Source of the DNA: an uncultured Pelagibacteraceae bacterium
GTDB lineage: Bacteria; Pseudomonadota; Alphaproteobacteria; Pelagibacterales; Pelagibacteraceae
Length of the DNA stretch: 48,862 nt
Assembly: GCA_902621345.1 (NCBI GenBank)
Contig: CACNLV010000003.1
Location: 1 to 48,862, forward strand
Direction of reading: 5' to 3'
Part shown: piece by piece, positions 13,063 through 33,471 of the stretch
Numbering within the stretch: the stretch's first letter is position 1
How the letters are laid out: each line of letters opens with the position of its first letter
The notes under the pieces: model-generated
Told to the model about the DNA's origin: nothing
The model's database searches: none
The model's input: only the letters and a program-made list of their open reading frames with translations
Program-made: the position numbers and the translations under genes

Positions 13063-13181
13063 ACTTTTTTAATTCTTTTAAAACTTCCTTTCCCCTTTTT
13101 TGGTTTGACTACCCTAAGCTTAAATTTTTTAGTAAAAAGTTCTTTAGCAAATTTATTTTTTTTCTGAAATTTCGTAACCAT
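13059..13181 (-). CDS. arfA: ArfA-like alternative ribosome-rescue factor, 40 aa
   Basis: This short leftward ORF starts at ATG 13179-13181 inside the 3' end of the regulator gene (29-nt overlap). It stops at TAA 13059-13061, overlapping the kinase stop. The core FKLRVVKPKKGKGSFKRIKK, near residues 20-39, matches the conserved ArfA segment (compare LFRQRVEKNKKGKGSYMRK in E. coli ArfA, from memory). ArfA recruits RF2 to ribosomes stalled on mRNAs lacking a stop codon, as a backup to tmRNA. The peptide is strongly basic, as expected for a ribosome ligand. The long E. coli C-terminal extension and its RNase III hairpin are absent. Confidence 0.78.
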   Translation of the reverse strand: MVTKFQKKNKFAKELFTKKFKLRVVKPKKGKGSFKRIKKV

Positions 13182-13722
13182 TTTTTTTACTGATAATTAA
13201 ATTTTCATCAAAGAACTTCTCTTTAATTTTTTTTCTCAACCTATGGATATGTGTCTCAACCGTATGGGTTTCTAGCTTTGATTGATATCCCCAAACTTTC
13301 TCTTGAAGTTCGTTGATTTTTATTGGTTTTTTGCTCTGAGATAAATATATAATCATATTTATTTCTTTTTCAGTTAGCTTTAACTTTTGACTATGGAGTA
13401 TCATTTCTCTAGAATTAGTATTAATAGTATATTTGCTAACAGTTATATTGGATTGTTCATTAAAATTTTTTTTCAAAAACTCAATATTAATTCTTTCTAA
13501 AAGTTTTGAGAACTTTATTGGAAAATTTTTTACCAGAACCATATTTGATAATTTAAGATCTTTAAGAGATAAAATAAGATAATCTTTATGACTTTTAAAA
13601 TTAATCTTAGATATTTCTTTTTTGGTTAAATTTATGACTTTAAAATTTAAATTTTCCTCAATTTCTGAGAATATATCAAAAAGAGACTTTGATTCATAAA
13701 TAAACAAAATTTGATTATTCAT
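13153..13722 (-). CDS. OmpR-type winged-helix regulator with degenerate receiver domain
   Basis: This 189-aa protein has a clear C-terminal OmpR/PhoB winged helix (about 110-188): KLTEKEINMIIYLSQ, then VWGYQSKLETHTVETHIHRLRKKI and KKNGYEI. The N-terminal half (1-105) has the beta/alpha layout of a receiver domain. It lacks the paired acidic residues after strand 1, a convincing phospho-acceptor Asp and the conserved Lys. It is therefore probably not controlled by ordinary phosphorylation. The start at ATG 13720-13722 is only 13 nt from the divergent L,D-transpeptidase start. Targets are unknown. Confidence 0.8.
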   Translation of the reverse strand: MNNQILFIYESKSLFDIFSEIEENLNFKVINLTKKEISKINFKSHKDYLILSLKDLKLSNMVLVKNFPIKFSKLLERINIEFLKKNFNEQSNITVSKYTINTNSREMILHSQKLKLTEKEINMIIYLSQSKKPIKINELQEKVWGYQSKLETHTVETHIHRLRKKIKEKFFDENLIISKKNGYEISEKK

Positions 13723-13735
13723 ATATAAACACAAT

Positions 13736-14230
13736 ATGGCAATTATTTTAAAAAACAAACATTCTCTTAAAGTTGATAACTTTAAATTTAAATGCTGTGT
13801 TGGAAAAAATGGGATTAGTAAAGGAAAAACTGAAGGAGACAATAAAACTCCCAAAGGTGACTTTGAATTAGAAAATTTATATTACAGAGGTGATAGATTA
13901 AATAAACCGTTTACAAAGTTAAAGTGTATTAAAATCGATAAGAGTATGGGTTGGTGTGACGACACAAGGGATAAGGCTAATTATAACAAATTAATCAATA
14001 CTAAAAAAAAAACAAAATACGAAAAACTTCATAGAAATGACTCTAAATATGATTTAATAATTCCAATAAAGTATAATTGGAAAGGAAAAAAACTCGGAAA
14101 AGGAAGCTGTATATTTTTACATTTAACTAAAAATTATAAACCAACAGCAGGTTGTATCGCATTATGCAAAAAAGACTTTTTAATTATGTTAAAGCTGATA
14201 AATCCAAAAACAAAAATTAAAATCTACTAG
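13736..14230 (+). CDS. L,D-transpeptidase (YkuD-domain) family protein
   Basis: This 164-aa protein fits the YkuD fold. It shows GDNKTPKGDFELENLYYRGD near residue 40 and a C-terminal active-site region with His in FLHLTKNY and the nucleophile Cys in AGCIALCKKDF. Such enzymes form 3-3 peptidoglycan cross-links or attach proteins to the wall. No signal peptide is visible, as in several short alphaproteobacterial members, so how it reaches the periplasm is unclear. It sits head-to-head with the regulator (13 nt) and overlaps the end of the YggS gene by 4 nt. Confidence 0.83.
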   Translation: MAIILKNKHSLKVDNFKFKCCVGKNGISKGKTEGDNKTPKGDFELENLYYRGDRLNKPFTKLKCIKIDKSMGWCDDTRDKANYNKLINTKKKTKYEKLHRNDSKYDLIIPIKYNWKGKKLGKGSCIFLHLTKNYKPTAGCIALCKKDFLIMLKLINPKTKIKIY

Positions 14231-21222: not shown

Positions 21223-22065
21223 TTAATAATTTTTTTTAATCACCTCAATTAGTCTATTTAGTTGATCACTGTCATTAAAGGAAATTGTTATTGAGCCTTT
21301 GTTTCTTCTGTTACTTTTTATTGAAACATTAAGTCCTATTTTATTAGATATAGACACTTCGAGATTTTTAATGTTAGGATCCTTATTTTGAATTATCTTT
21401 TTTGATTTTTTAAAAAATTTGACAAAATTTTCAGATTGTCTTACAGATAATTTCTTATCTATAATTTTATTCGCCAAAAAGCTTGCGTTTTCTAGGCCTA
21501 CAAGAATTTTAGCATGTCCGGGACTAATTTTCCTTTCCTCTATGTAACTTAAAACGTCTGCAGGTAAATTAAGTAATCTTAGTGAGTTAGTAATATAGCT
21601 TCTGCTCTTTCCAATAAATTTTGAGACTTTGTCCTGATCGTATGAAAATTCATCAATTAGTCTTTTGTATCCTTGAGCCTCCTCTAGAGGATTTAAATCA
21701 TGTCTTTGAACATTTTCAACTATAGCGAACTCAAGCGACTTAAGATCATCTGCTTCAGTAACAACTACTGGAATATCATGAAGACCAGCCTTTCTTGCTG
21801 CTAACCATCGTCTTTCTCCAGCAATGATCTCGTACTTGGAATCATCGGAGACTGATTTTCTCACTATAATTGGCTGAATTACGCCCCGCTCTTTTATTGA
21901 GTTAGTTAGATCTTGTAGATTTTCTTCCTGAAAATTTTTTCTTGGTTGAAATTTGTTTGGCACGATATCACTTAAAGAAAGTTTATTAGTTTTAGCTTCT
22001 ATTTTAGATTCACCAATCAAGGATGATAAACCTCTTCCTAAACCTTTTTTAATTTGAGAATTCAT
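21223..22065 (-). CDS. parB: chromosome-partitioning protein ParB
   Basis: This 280-aa DNA-binding CTPase loads on parS and spreads to form the partition complex. It has an N-terminal KKGLGRGLSSLIG, then LSDIVPNKFQPRKNF near residue 31. The CTP-binding/arginine patch is GERRWLAARKAG near residue 78, and the ENVQRHDLNPLEEAQGYKRLI box is near residue 113. A helix-turn-helix (SKFIGKSRSYITNSLRLLNLP) follows, with a C-terminal dimerisation region. The gene overlaps parA by one base, and a matching parS site lies 1.4 kb upstream in rsmG. Confidence 0.97.
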   Translation of the reverse strand: MNSQIKKGLGRGLSSLIGESKIEAKTNKLSLSDIVPNKFQPRKNFQEENLQDLTNSIKERGVIQPIIVRKSVSDDSKYEIIAGERRWLAARKAGLHDIPVVVTEADDLKSLEFAIVENVQRHDLNPLEEAQGYKRLIDEFSYDQDKVSKFIGKSRSYITNSLRLLNLPADVLSYIEERKISPGHAKILVGLENASFLANKIIDKKLSVRQSENFVKFFKKSKKIIQNKDPNIKNLEVSISNKIGLNVSIKSNRRNKGSITISFNDSDQLNRLIEVIKKNY

Positions 22066-22859
22066 TATGCGGCACTTCCAATTTTATTTTCTTGCTCAAT
22101 AAATTCATCAGTGAAATTATAATAAGATTTACTACCTGGACAATTTTTATCATAAATAAGCACAGGTACGCCGTGAGAAGGTGCTTCAGATAATCTTACA
22201 TTTCTTGGTATTACTGTTTGATAAACTTTATCTTTAAAGTAGTCTCTAGCTTCCTGTTCTACTTGAGAAGATAACTTATTTCTTCTATCGTACATTGTTA
22301 AAAGTATTCCTTGAATCTCTAAAGAAGGATTAAGATTTACCTTTATTCGTTCAATAGTCTTCATAAGTTGAGTTAGTCCCTCTAATGCAAAAAATTCTGT
22401 TTGAAGGGGGACTAAAAGAGAATTAGATGATACCAAAGCCATTACTGTCAATAAACTTAAGGAAGGGGGACAATCAATAAGCACATAATCGTAAATTCCT
22501 CTAGAATTATTTAAATATGCGGTTAATTTACTCTTTAAAATAAAAGCTCTATCGCTATCGTTAGCCGTCTCAACCTCTAATCCTGACAGATCCACATTGG
22601 ATGTTATTAAATCAAGGTTTCTAAATTTGGTTTGCTTAATAACATTTGAAATGGACATCGTTCCATTTAAGATTCCATATATTGTTTGGTCAGATTGATT
22701 AGTATTTGATAATCCTAAACCAGTAGTGGCATTTCCTTGTGGATCTAAATCAATTACCAGAATTTTTTTATTTAGTTGTGTTAAAGCTGATGCGAGATTA
22801 ATGACCGTTGTTGTTTTCCCAACTCCACCCTTTTGATTTATTATTGAAATTATTTTCAC
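22065..22859 (-). CDS. parA: chromosome-partitioning ATPase ParA (Soj)
   Basis: This 264-aa Walker-type ATPase has the deviant Walker A motif NQKGGVGKTTTVINLA (residues 8-23). Also present are LVIDLDPQGNATTGLG near residue 35 and YVLIDCPPSLSLLTV (Walker B) near residue 124. ParA binds nucleoid DNA and moves ParB-parS complexes, segregating replicated origins. It overlaps rsmG by 4 nt and parB by 1 nt, in the widespread mnmG-rsmG-parA-parB arrangement. Confidence 0.97.
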   Translation of the reverse strand: MKIISIINQKGGVGKTTTVINLASALTQLNKKILVIDLDPQGNATTGLGLSNTNQSDQTIYGILNGTMSISNVIKQTKFRNLDLITSNVDLSGLEVETANDSDRAFILKSKLTAYLNNSRGIYDYVLIDCPPSLSLLTVMALVSSNSLLVPLQTEFFALEGLTQLMKTIERIKVNLNPSLEIQGILLTMYDRRNKLSSQVEQEARDYFKDKVYQTVIPRNVRLSEAPSHGVPVLIYDKNCPGSKSYYNFTDEFIEQENKIGSAA

Positions 22860-23503
22860 AATTTTTTTTTCTTTAACTTTTTAATGTTTATTATAAATGA
22901 GTCGTTACTAGTTATACTTTTTTTTTCTTCATAATCTAAATCCCAAGTTTTCAATGTTTCGTTGAGAATTTTTTGTCCACTTTTTCCCATAAATAAAATT
23001 ATATTATTAAATTTCTTAAAATTTTGATTTATAAGATCTAAAATTATAGGCATAGGTTTAAAAGCTCTCGACATTACAGTTCCTGTTTCAATTTTCTTAA
23101 TTGTAAAAATATCTTTTTGGATAATTTTTGTATTTAAATTTAATTTTTTTGAAACATCTTTTAAAAAAACGCATTTATGATGGCTTTTTTCATATAGGTT
23201 TATCCTGAGTGAATTTTTTAACTTTTTCATTATTATTGCTATAACAAGCCCTGGCATCCCCCCTCCAGATCCTAAATCACAGGTTGTATTCGAATTTAAA
23301 TCAATAAAATCAACTATTTGTGCCGAATCTATTATATGTCTTTTCCTAATTTCGCTAATTTCAGCAGTTTTCTTACTGATTATATTAATTTGCTTATTTT
23401 TCTCCCTTATCATTGAAATTAAGCTCTCAAAATCAAAGCAAGTTTCACGTGAAACATTCGGGATTGTGATTTTTGAGTAAAAATTTAAAATTGTATTATC
23501 CAT
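22856..23503 (-). CDS. rsmG: 16S rRNA (guanine527-N7)-methyltransferase RsmG (GidB)
   Basis: This 215-aa SAM-dependent enzyme methylates G527 in 16S rRNA. It shows NVSRETCF near residue 16, RHIIDSAQIVDFID near residue 54, the SAM motif CDLGSGGGMPGLVIAI near residue 75, and MSRAFKPMPIILDL in the C-terminal half. The residues VSRET are encoded by the parS palindrome at 23441-23456, a dual use known in other bacteria. It overlaps mnmG by one base. Confidence 0.95.
   Translation of the reverse strand: MDNTILNFYSKITIPNVSRETCFDFESLISMIREKNKQINIISKKTAEISEIRKRHIIDSAQIVDFIDLNSNTTCDLGSGGGMPGLVIAIIMKKLKNSLRINLYEKSHHKCVFLKDVSKKLNLNTKIIQKDIFTIKKIETGTVMSRAFKPMPIILDLINQNFKKFNNIILFMGKSGQKILNETLKTWDLDYEEKKSITSNDSFIINIKKLKKKKL
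23441..23456. promoter_or_regulatory. parS centromere site inside rsmG
   Basis: The 16-mer AGTTTCACGTGAAACA contains the perfect 14-bp palindrome GTTTCACGTGAAAC (23442-23455). It matches the B. subtilis parS consensus TGTTTCACGTGAAACA at 15 of 16 positions. It lies in codons 17-21 of rsmG, just upstream of parAB and about 9 kb from the candidate oriC. No second copy was seen in the window. Confidence 0.93.
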
Positions 23504-31376: not shown

Positions 31377-32378
31377 CTAATAATTTTTTACCGTTTTTAC
31401 TAAATAGTCCATCATTTCTGGATCTGTTTCAGGTAAAACTCCATGCCCTAAGTTAAATATATAAGGGTGATCTTTAAAAATATCTAAATATCTTTTTGCC
31501 TCTTTCTTTAATTTTTCTTTATCGGTTAGTAAAATTTTGGGGTCCATTCCTCCTTGTACTGGAATTTTAATATTTCTTAAGATTTCCTTGGGATCCGCCT
31601 CATAATCAATACAGATAGCATCAGGTTTAACATTTTCACAGTAATCTTTATATTTTTTTATACCTTTAGGAAAACATATGACTGGAATGTTTAAAGATTT
31701 TGTGTATTCAACTAAATTAATACTCGGTTCATAAACATAATTTGGTAAATCTTTCTCATTTAATAACCCAGCCCAACTATCAAAAATTTGAATAATTTGT
31801 GCACCGTTTTCAACTTGATACTTGATGTGCACCTTTAAAAACTTTTCAATTATTTTTAATGTTTTGTCTATTAGATTTTTATCTTTAAAAAAGTCTTTTC
31901 TTAATCCAGATTTTGGAGATTTTTGATTTATCATGTAAACCAAAAGAGTCCATGGAGCACCAACAAAACCTATGGTGTTCTTATTTTTAGTAAGTTCACT
32001 ATTTTTAATTAAATTTACTAATTTATAAACTGGTCTAAGTTTTTCCACAAAATCAATTTCATTTAATATCAAAACATTATCTAAGTTTAAATCTCCTAAA
32101 ATAGGACCAATTCCTTTTTTAAACTCCACTTTTTGATTCAGTCCATATGGAAGCATTAAAATATCTGAAAAAATTATAGCAGCATCTAAATCAAATCTTC
32201 TTAAAGGTTGTAAAGTTATCTCTGCTGATAATACTTCATTAAGACATAATCTTATAAAATTAGGATTTTCGCTCCTAATTTTTCGAAATTCTGGAAGATA
32301 TCTACCAGCTTGTCTCATAATCCAAATAGGCTTTATTGCTGTATCATTATTTTTTAAAACTTTATAAATTGGAGTCAT
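31377..32378 (-). CDS. hemE: uroporphyrinogen decarboxylase
   Basis: This 333-aa enzyme converts uroporphyrinogen III to coproporphyrinogen III. It shows the N-terminal signature IWIMRQAGRYLPEFRKIR near residue 18, FSDILMLPYGL near residue 70, GFVGAPWTLLVYM near residue 138 and LGHGVLPETDPEMM near the C-terminus. It is the last leftward gene before the divergent intergenic region. In Caulobacter and Rickettsia hemE flanks the replication origin, matching the DnaA boxes found here. Confidence 0.97.
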   Translation of the reverse strand: MTPIYKVLKNNDTAIKPIWIMRQAGRYLPEFRKIRSENPNFIRLCLNEVLSAEITLQPLRRFDLDAAIIFSDILMLPYGLNQKVEFKKGIGPILGDLNLDNVLILNEIDFVEKLRPVYKLVNLIKNSELTKNKNTIGFVGAPWTLLVYMINQKSPKSGLRKDFFKDKNLIDKTLKIIEKFLKVHIKYQVENGAQIIQIFDSWAGLLNEKDLPNYVYEPSINLVEYTKSLNIPVICFPKGIKKYKDYCENVKPDAICIDYEADPKEILRNIKIPVQGGMDPKILLTDKEKLKKEAKRYLDIFKDHPYIFNLGHGVLPETDPEMMDYLVKTVKNY

Positions 32379-32419
32379 ATATAAATTATATATTATAAGA
32401 TTGTAGTATTATTAGGGAA

Positions 32420-32428
32420 TGTGAATAA
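32420..32428 (-). promoter_or_regulatory. DnaA box (TTATTCACA)
   Basis: The minus strand reads TTATTCACA, an exact match to the degenerate DnaA-box consensus TTATNCACA. It lies within the hemE-ppsR gap, 127 nt from the perfect box and in the same orientation. Confidence 0.75.
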
Positions 32429-32489
32429 TGGTAACTATATTTTATTAACATTTTATCAACTATTTATTCTTTAATTTATTATTATTTAA

Positions 32490-32511
32490 TAAGTAATTCA
32501 TAAATTACTTA
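32490..32511. repeat. 9-bp inverted repeat in oriC
   Basis: TAAGTAATT and AATTACTTA are perfect inverted arms separated by CATA. The repeat sits between the outer DnaA boxes and is made only of A/T-rich sequence. It could be a binding site for an origin protein or part of the unwinding region. No U-tract suggests it is a terminator. Confidence 0.7.
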
Positions 32512-32546
32512 ATCATTTGTATATTTGTTTTCCACTTAATAAATAA

Positions 32547-32555
32547 TGTGGATAA
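32547..32555 (-). promoter_or_regulatory. perfect consensus DnaA box (TTATCCACA)
   Basis: The minus strand reads TTATCCACA, the highest-affinity DnaA-box sequence. It lies in the hemE-ppsR gap with a weaker TTTTCCACT box 10 nt to the left in the opposite orientation. Confidence 0.85.
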
Positions 32556-32640
32556 AACCCTTATTTTACAAGCTATTTTAAATAAAAAATAAATTTGTTT
32601 AATCTTATTAAAATATTACAAAGATATTAACAAAATATAC

Positions 32641-33471
32641 ATGATTAATACTTATCAAATATTCTTAATTTCTGATTCTACAGGTGAGACTTTGGATAGA
32701 ATTTTTTTATCTTTAAAGGCGCAGTTTAAAAATATTGATTATAAAGTTAATTCATACTCTTTTACTAGAACCGAAAATCAAATATCTAAGATTCTTGACC
32801 TAGCTGAGGAAGAAAAAAATTCAATAATTTTATATACAATTGTAGACAACAATTTAGCTAAAAGTTTAGCCAACGCATGCAACAAAAAAGGAATACCCTG
32901 TTTTGGAGTTTTGGGAAGCCTGATATTAAGTTTTTCAAAATTATTTAATCAAAAAGCATCTCATGAACCTAGCGGGCAACATGTTTTAGATGAAGAATAT
33001 TACAACAGAATTGAAGCTATTCAATATACGATGAATCATGATGACGGTAATTTGCTATTAGATGTTGAAAAATCTAATATAATCTTATTAGGTGTTAGCA
33101 GAACAAGCAAAACACCTACATCCATATACTTAGCAAATAAAGGTTATAAAACAGCGAATATACCTTTGGTTAATCAAAACTCCATCCCTAAAATCTTAAG
33201 AGAAAACCCACAGAGTTTTTGTGTCGTGGGTTTAACAGCTGAGGCCGAGAGACTAGTTGATATAAGAAAGAATCGCATTAACTCGTTGAAAGATGGAAAA
33301 AATCAAGATTATACTAATTTAGATAAAATTAAAAAAGAGGTTGAGGACGCGAAAAATACTTTTAGAAAATATAAGTGGCCAACTATAGATGTTACAAGGA
33401 AATCTGTTGAAGAAACAGCTGCATCTATAATCAAAATTTATGAAATTTTTTTAAGCAAAAGAAATGGATAA
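32641..33471 (+). CDS. ppsR: PpsR/PDRP-type pyruvate, phosphate dikinase (or PEP synthase) regulatory kinase-phosphorylase
   Basis: This 276-aa bifunctional ADP-dependent kinase/phosphorylase switches PEP synthase or pyruvate, phosphate dikinase off and on. It shows IFLISDSTGETLDRIF near residue 7, the strongly conserved HEPSGQHVLDEEYYNRIEA near residue 107 and the P-loop-like LLGVSRTSKTPTSIYLANKG near residue 150. It directly follows oriC, as the RP001-type gene does in Rickettsia. It overlaps maf by 8 nt. The target dikinase is not in the window. Confidence 0.93.
   Translation: MINTYQIFLISDSTGETLDRIFLSLKAQFKNIDYKVNSYSFTRTENQISKILDLAEEEKNSIILYTIVDNNLAKSLANACNKKGIPCFGVLGSLILSFSKLFNQKASHEPSGQHVLDEEYYNRIEAIQYTMNHDDGNLLLDVEKSNIILLGVSRTSKTPTSIYLANKGYKTANIPLVNQNSIPKILRENPQSFCVVGLTAEAERLVDIRKNRINSLKDGKNQDYTNLDKIKKEVEDAKNTFRKYKWPTIDVTRKSVEETAASIIKIYEIFLSKRNG

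Follow-up and report, generated by a model that had tools for sequence, protein, structure and literature searches.

A 262-bp gap between hemE and ppsR as the likely chromosomal replication origin of a SAR11 bacterium, with a predicted relaxed DnaA box code

The 262-bp gap between hemE and ppsR (positions 32379–32640) is very probably the chromosomal oriC of a Pelagibacteraceae (SAR11) bacterium, at which DnaA would bind and replication would start. It lies in the window analysed here, the 48,862-nt contig C3 of an assembly of 1,190,016 b in four contigs (G000), and we classify it as an alphaproteobacterial origin of the hemE type in a CtrA-less variant. The location is the expected one; the relaxed box code, the phased spacing of the boxes and a conserved unwinding (BUS) layout are the new detail. 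The preliminary description had proposed a probable oriC at this position, and the proposal is supported by boxes conserved among relatives, a box cluster with no equal in the scanned 40% of the genome, retention of the gap where one or the other flanking gene has been lost, and the nearby parS and parAB.

NCBIfam models identified hemE, ppsR, maf, aroE, coaE and dnaQ on the window, with hemH, hemJ and rho on its left side; COG1806, the family of ppsR, corresponds to DUF299 (PMC1914354). hemE (minus strand) and ppsR (plus strand) point away from the gap, confirming the divergent transcription described earlier. The gap is also, as had been claimed, the longest gene-free stretch among the 55 retained open reading frames of the contig (next gap, 197 bp) and very AT-rich, with a GC content of 14.9% relative to 29.1% for the contig. 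Only 7 of the 48,601 262-bp windows on the contig, the gap itself included, are as GC-poor; the contig minimum (14.5%) falls in the 262-bp window starting at 32377, so that the gap coincides to within 2 bp with the AT-richest 262 bp. The closest relatives of PpsR are Pelagibacteraceae records (identity up to 91%). A search for PpsR loci returned 71, from which five loci of other alphaproteobacteria (L068–L072) and one on a contig that ends before hemE (L017) were left out; the remaining 65 relatives and the window gave a comparison set of 66 gaps, equivalent to approximately 32 effective sequences, with gap lengths of 260–283 bp. The features are as follows (counts refer to these 66 loci).

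21223–22065, minus strand: parB (PF02195, PF17762).
22065–22859, minus strand: parA (PF13614).
23441–23456: parS, the sole site in G000 with at most one mismatch, inside rsmG beside parA and parB.
31377–32378, minus strand: hemE, left flank of the gap (TIGR01464 above cut-off).
32379–32403: AT-rich tract on the hemE side, where melting is predicted to begin (DUE); 23 of 25 bases are A or T, and it adjoins the trio-like block.
32404–32415, plus strand: four DnaA-trio-like triplets, TAG TAT TAT TAG, laid out as in the BUS rules of PMC8287927.
32416–32419: GGAA, the 4-bp spacer that separates the trios from the box, read from the sequence.
32420–32428, minus strand: DnaA box TTATTCACA, the BUS box; TTATTCACA in 33 of 66 loci, overlapping the best-conserved 9-mer in the gap.
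32442–32450, plus strand: array box 1, TTATTAACA; of the 66 loci, 24 carry exact TTATNAACA and 44 have an AACA end (counted over the 14 commonest states).
32453–32461, plus strand: array box 2, TTATCAACT, 11 bp after box 1; TTATNAAC[ACT] in 52 of 66 (among the 14 commonest states).
32464–32472, plus strand: third array position, degenerate in this genome (TTATTCTTT); 30 of 66 loci have TTATTAACA.
32547–32555, minus strand: DnaA box TTATCCACA, a conserved 9-mer, from the site states over the 66 loci.
32556–32571: conserved block AACCCTTATTTTACAA, with the second most conserved 9-mer at 32563–32571.
32624–32632, plus strand: ppsR-edge box ATATTAACA, with a conserved 9-mer at 32623–32631; at least 42 of 66 loci carry TATTAACA (states of 32625–32633).
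32641–33471, plus strand: ppsR (DUF299/COG1806), right flank of the gap (NF003742 above cut-off).

The two boxes reported earlier, TTATTCACA and TTATCCACA, were recovered exactly at 32420–32428 and 32547–32555 (both minus strand), and the two weaker ones can be read from the sequence as TTATCAACT (32453–32461) and TTTTCCACT (32528–32536). The inverted repeat is likewise present (arms 32491–32498 and 32503–32510); its arms recur in just 2 of the 66 loci, and it is therefore probably incidental. The description of the box set as sparse applies against the E. coli consensus alone and no longer holds once the lineage variant TTATNAACA is counted.

The SAR11 sites read TTATN[A/C]ACA, a predicted relaxed form of the DnaA binding site. 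This pattern occurs 2.95 times per gap versus 0.19 in dinucleotide shuffles and is found in 65 of the 66 loci. The gaps of the 65 relatives hold 192 sites in 17,850 b and their surroundings 141 in 782,403 b, giving densities of 10.8 and 0.18 per kb, a 60-fold difference; these shuffle and density ratios overstate the number of events because related sequences are not independent. The sites are furthermore phased: pairs on the plus strand spaced by 11 bp number 64 versus 0.0 in shuffles and occur in 53 of the 66 gaps (13 are without one), with 52 of the 65 relatives' gaps holding a pair and a single pair in the 782,403 b outside. Within the 476,577 b of G000 scanned (40% of the genome), the gap is the sole cluster of three sites per 262 bp and the sole 11-bp pair. 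Genome-wide, TTATNAACA itself shows no enrichment (189 sites versus 199 for the reversed control). Boxes of the form TTATNCACA occur twice in the window gap and at least once in 35 of the 66 loci (0.71 per gap versus 0.03 shuffled). With 55 copies of TTATNCACA in the genome, approximately 0.7 pairs within 262 bp are expected by arithmetic and two are observed, so the pair count was rejected as proof of an origin; the box evidence is strong because it is conserved over 66 loci, the count alone being weak. The second TTATNCACA pair lies at C2:29371–29479 of G000, in an apparent rRNA–tRNA spacer.

Ranking of conserved 9-mers over the 66 loci gave 32418–32426, 32563–32571, 32547–32555, 32448–32456, 32429–32437 and 32623–32631, in that order; four of the six overlap boxes, the second and fifth being non-box sequence. 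The block AACCCTTATTTTACAA (32556–32571) matched none of the motifs tried. At 32547–32555 the loci carry TTATTAACA (43), TTATCAACA (8), TTATTCACA (7) or TTATCCACA (2); as the site drifts between CACA and AACA ends, we read it as the site of one protein that tolerates changes at the sixth base. In the relative G001, none of the 11 TTATCCACA sites is at the gap.

The left end of the gap resembles a basal unwinding layout of the BUS type, defined as a DnaA box with at most two mismatches located 0–16 bp from at least three NAN trios, with a trio–box spacer region averaging 4 bp (PMC8287927). The window has a box with one mismatch, a spacing of 4 bp and four trios. Reversal of the boxes is described as inactivating. 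The orientation of the box relative to the trios in the window agrees with what we take to be the B. subtilis layout. In the two box-proximal triplets the first base is T in all 66 loci and the second base is A in 63 and 61, respectively; the third triplet from the box has A in 40 of 66. At fixed spacing, three or more trio-like triplets stand in a row beside the box in 33 of the 66 loci. When the spacing is left free at 2–8 bp, 53 of the 66 gaps match a strict BUS rule, 32 of these having the match next to hemE, versus 2.95 per 66 in shuffles. The same rule found no match in the 31 gaps from other families of the class in which hemE and ppsR diverge (33 loci looked at; of 115 genomes, 68 gave a PpsR match, and 30 loci were taken from these); 14 of these 31 gaps hold an exact TTATNCACA, and their lengths (308–1,064 bp) all exceed those of the 66 Pelagibacteraceae gaps. 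A loose trio–box string had 21 matches in 18 of 61 genomes versus 3 for the reversed control; its use as a unique marker was rejected, as it also matches C4:8976 in G000. The DnaA protein of G000 aligns over residues 22–465 with 8btg, the B. subtilis DnaA, and by manual count on this alignment it keeps the ISM isoleucine I190, the arginine finger R264 and the RDHTT motif. The roles of I190 and R264 as ISM isoleucine and arginine finger are those given in PMC8287927.

The segregation genes provide further context. With a parS consensus that we take to be correct, the G000 site was placed 8.9 kb from the gap, and parS and parAB together lie 9–11 kb away. A site with at most one mismatch was found in 12 of 15 further genomes; G176, G036 and G002 have two-mismatch sites alone. 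In the seven genomes where both were placed, the parS–gap distance ranges from 7.2 to 19.5 kb (G020, 7.2; G034, 8.8; G000, 8.9; G001, 9.7; G033, 10.2; G044, 10.3; G146, 19.5 kb).

Could the gap be merely a divergent promoter region, conserved for transcriptional control of hemE and ppsR? The two genes do diverge from it, and conserved positions extend to both start codons; nevertheless we consider this highly improbable. The box density is 60-fold above the surroundings in the 65 relatives, the contig's next longest gap measures 197 bp, and a gap of 273–353 bp (tblastn borders) stays in place with rho for hemE in one genome or maf for ppsR in three. The former is G146, a single-contig genome of the same family and another genus, where rho occupies the hemE position beside a 353-bp gap (tblastn borders) with a similar site order (three exact TTATAAACA and one TTATGAACA). 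In G146 (gap C1:141329–141681), mnmE, parS and parAB lie approximately 16–22 kb away; its left flank is rearranged, since rho stands at the hemE position while these genes are so distant. In the second family of the order, where none of the 15 searched genomes gave a PpsR match, G033, G034 and G044 have a gap of 273–295 bp between hemE and maf (tblastn borders), in which a TTGTAG- or TTGTTG-like block precedes a TGTGG-type box. These three gaps are poor in exact patterns: each has a single exact TTATN[AC]ACA, and on their hemE side the trio pattern has no match. The gap thus outlives the loss of hemE (one genome) or ppsR (three of three examined), which argues against a promoter-only reading. 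A DnaA-titrating or DnaA-resetting locus, of the datA or DARS kind known to perform these functions, would also appear as a DnaA-box cluster, as the gap does; this reading is scarcely credible given the AT-rich tract and trio layout, flanks shared with the experimentally mapped Cori, and the lack of any other such cluster within the scanned 40% of the genome.

An origin at another place, either next to dnaA or at the C2/C3 junction where the skew is lowest, is very unlikely in our judgement; the evidence in its favour comes from GC skew. Contigs were ordered as C2(+), C3(+), C4(−), C1(+) by synteny with a 451-kb contig of G001 and the closed genome G020, which places dnaA (domain match 140,971–141,438 on C2) approximately 63 kb from the gap on the inferred order. 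Skew was computed from sampled stretches, except for G001 112.5–222.5 kb and G000 from C2:128,001 through C3 and C4, which were covered continuously. The preliminary description had named a cumulative skew minimum within about 1 kb as support; the minimum instead lies approximately 31 kb to the left (−678 at C3:1237 versus −457 at the gap, where there is a local minimum at 32680). This position is nearly equidistant from the gap (31 kb) and dnaA (32 kb), and skew therefore does not settle between hemE and dnaA. In G001 the minimum is 33.5 kb left of the gap. A raw-skew fit for G000 prefers 176 kb on the scaffold, with the gap (204.8 kb) 1.7 log units worse; after strand correction the gap is 2.4 log units below the best position and dnaA stays inside the supported interval. 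For G020 the raw fit prefers 168 kb (hemE 4.8 units worse), and the strand-corrected fit is flat, with hemE 0.1 below the best and nearly all positions within 2. The skew maximum is roughly opposite the gap in both genomes (G000, approximately C1:600–656 kb; G020, approximately 616–640 kb, where the gap is located near 1,262 kb). In the skew, the coefficient for gene strand (0.16) far exceeds that for replication arm (0.014 at hemE); with this and the minimum some 31 kb off, skew was dropped as a deciding test. Against an origin at dnaA, the 8 kb around that gene (C2:138001–146000) hold one TTATN[AC]ACA site and no cluster, and parS and parAB lie 9–11 kb from the hemE gap. Skew is described as insufficient in several alphaproteobacteria (PMC1914354), and the Hyphomonas origin was reported close to hemE by marker frequency after an unclear skew (PMC6650430). 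Pelagibacter ubique is described as lacking dif/Xer (PMC2731167).

Regulatory sites were compared between the 66 gaps and their shuffles. CtrA sites of the form TTAA-N7-TTAA are absent from the window gap and occur at 0.27 per gap versus 0.30 shuffled. No CtrA scored over the NCBIfam cut-off (model RespRegCtrARhodob) in 41 Pelagibacterales genomes, a model that placed 1 of 14 control genomes over its cut-off. A CtrA reading of the TTAA-N7-TTAA-like spacing was accordingly rejected. Among the four OmpR-type regulators found in G000 with PF00486, one scores over cut-off as PhoB; among the matches listed, the remaining three reach no cut-off and have better fits than CtrA. At 13153–13854 of the window lies a response-regulator-like gene, in which Pfam recognises the C-terminal winged-helix domain alone, the N-terminal half being without a match. 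IHF sites (WATCAN5WTR) number two in the window gap and occur in 34 of the 66 loci (0.71 per gap versus 0.31 shuffled). GANTC is absent from all 66 gaps, where shuffles predict approximately 7.5 in total.

Several known systems share parts of this arrangement. The low-affinity DnaA-ATP array of E. coli oriC consists of 9-mers two bases apart, with an 11-bp period. The SAR11 array shares that period, whereas its sites follow one consensus and adjoin a trio block. The hemE–COG1806 origins of Caulobacter crescentus (Cori) and Rickettsia, cited in the preliminary description as precedent and borne out by the flanks given in PMC1914354, resemble the gap in both flanking genes, AT-richness and DnaA boxes. 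The gap differs from them in being shorter (262 versus >400 bp) and in having chance-level CtrA sites, no CtrA over cut-off and clade boxes that are mostly TTATNAACA; CtrA sites are described as present in Cori and missing in some relatives (PMC1914354), and Pelagibacter as having no ctrA ortholog (PMC2877005). The B. subtilis BUS has in common with the gap a DnaA box, a 4-bp spacer and at least three NAN trios (PMC8287927), whereas the SAR11 layout is at hemE, approximately 63 kb from dnaA, with boxes partly of the AACA type and unwinding that is predicted. The identical 9-mer TTATTAACA is given as a putative DnaA box in Mycoplasma hominis, M. mobile and M. arthritidis; these boxes are located upstream of dnaA (two in M. 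hominis, one in the others), with no 11-bp array in the account given there (PMC2751442). For Pelagibacter ubique HTCC1062, oriC is stated to have been assigned by hand, in a passage that does not describe its anatomy (PMC4033161). Titles and abstract openings in the open-licence literature yielded no paper on SAR11 origin boxes; as subscription papers and DoriC fall outside that scope, the location may well be recorded there.

As a working model, DnaA would bind TTATTCACA at 32420–32428, and the array at 32442–32472 together with the boxes at 32547 and 32624 may gather further DnaA through cooperativity or looping. The DnaA oligomer would then extend onto the trios (32404–32415) and part the strands in 32379–32403, where the helicase would load. 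Since no CtrA was found, control to one initiation per cycle would fall to DnaA itself and the weaker boxes, rather than to CtrA repression as in Caulobacter.

SAR11 are among the most abundant marine bacteria, and knowing the origin exactly gives a fixed reference point for estimating growth rates from metagenome coverage; the case also illustrates that, in AT-rich genomes, GC skew and box counts based on the consensus alone can be misleading. The gap offers a short natural test piece for the model of DnaA box and trios, and an example of how initiation may be controlled in an alphaproteobacterium that lacks CtrA. We tentatively suggest, as a possibility somewhat short of an even call, that Pelagibacterales initiate without CtrA on a relaxed TTATN[A/C]ACA code, with an array of AT-shifted boxes, phased at 11 bp and adjoining a BUS, as the whole initiation switch; among complete origins of alphaproteobacteria this would be one of the smallest, retained in one piece while neighbouring genes come and go.
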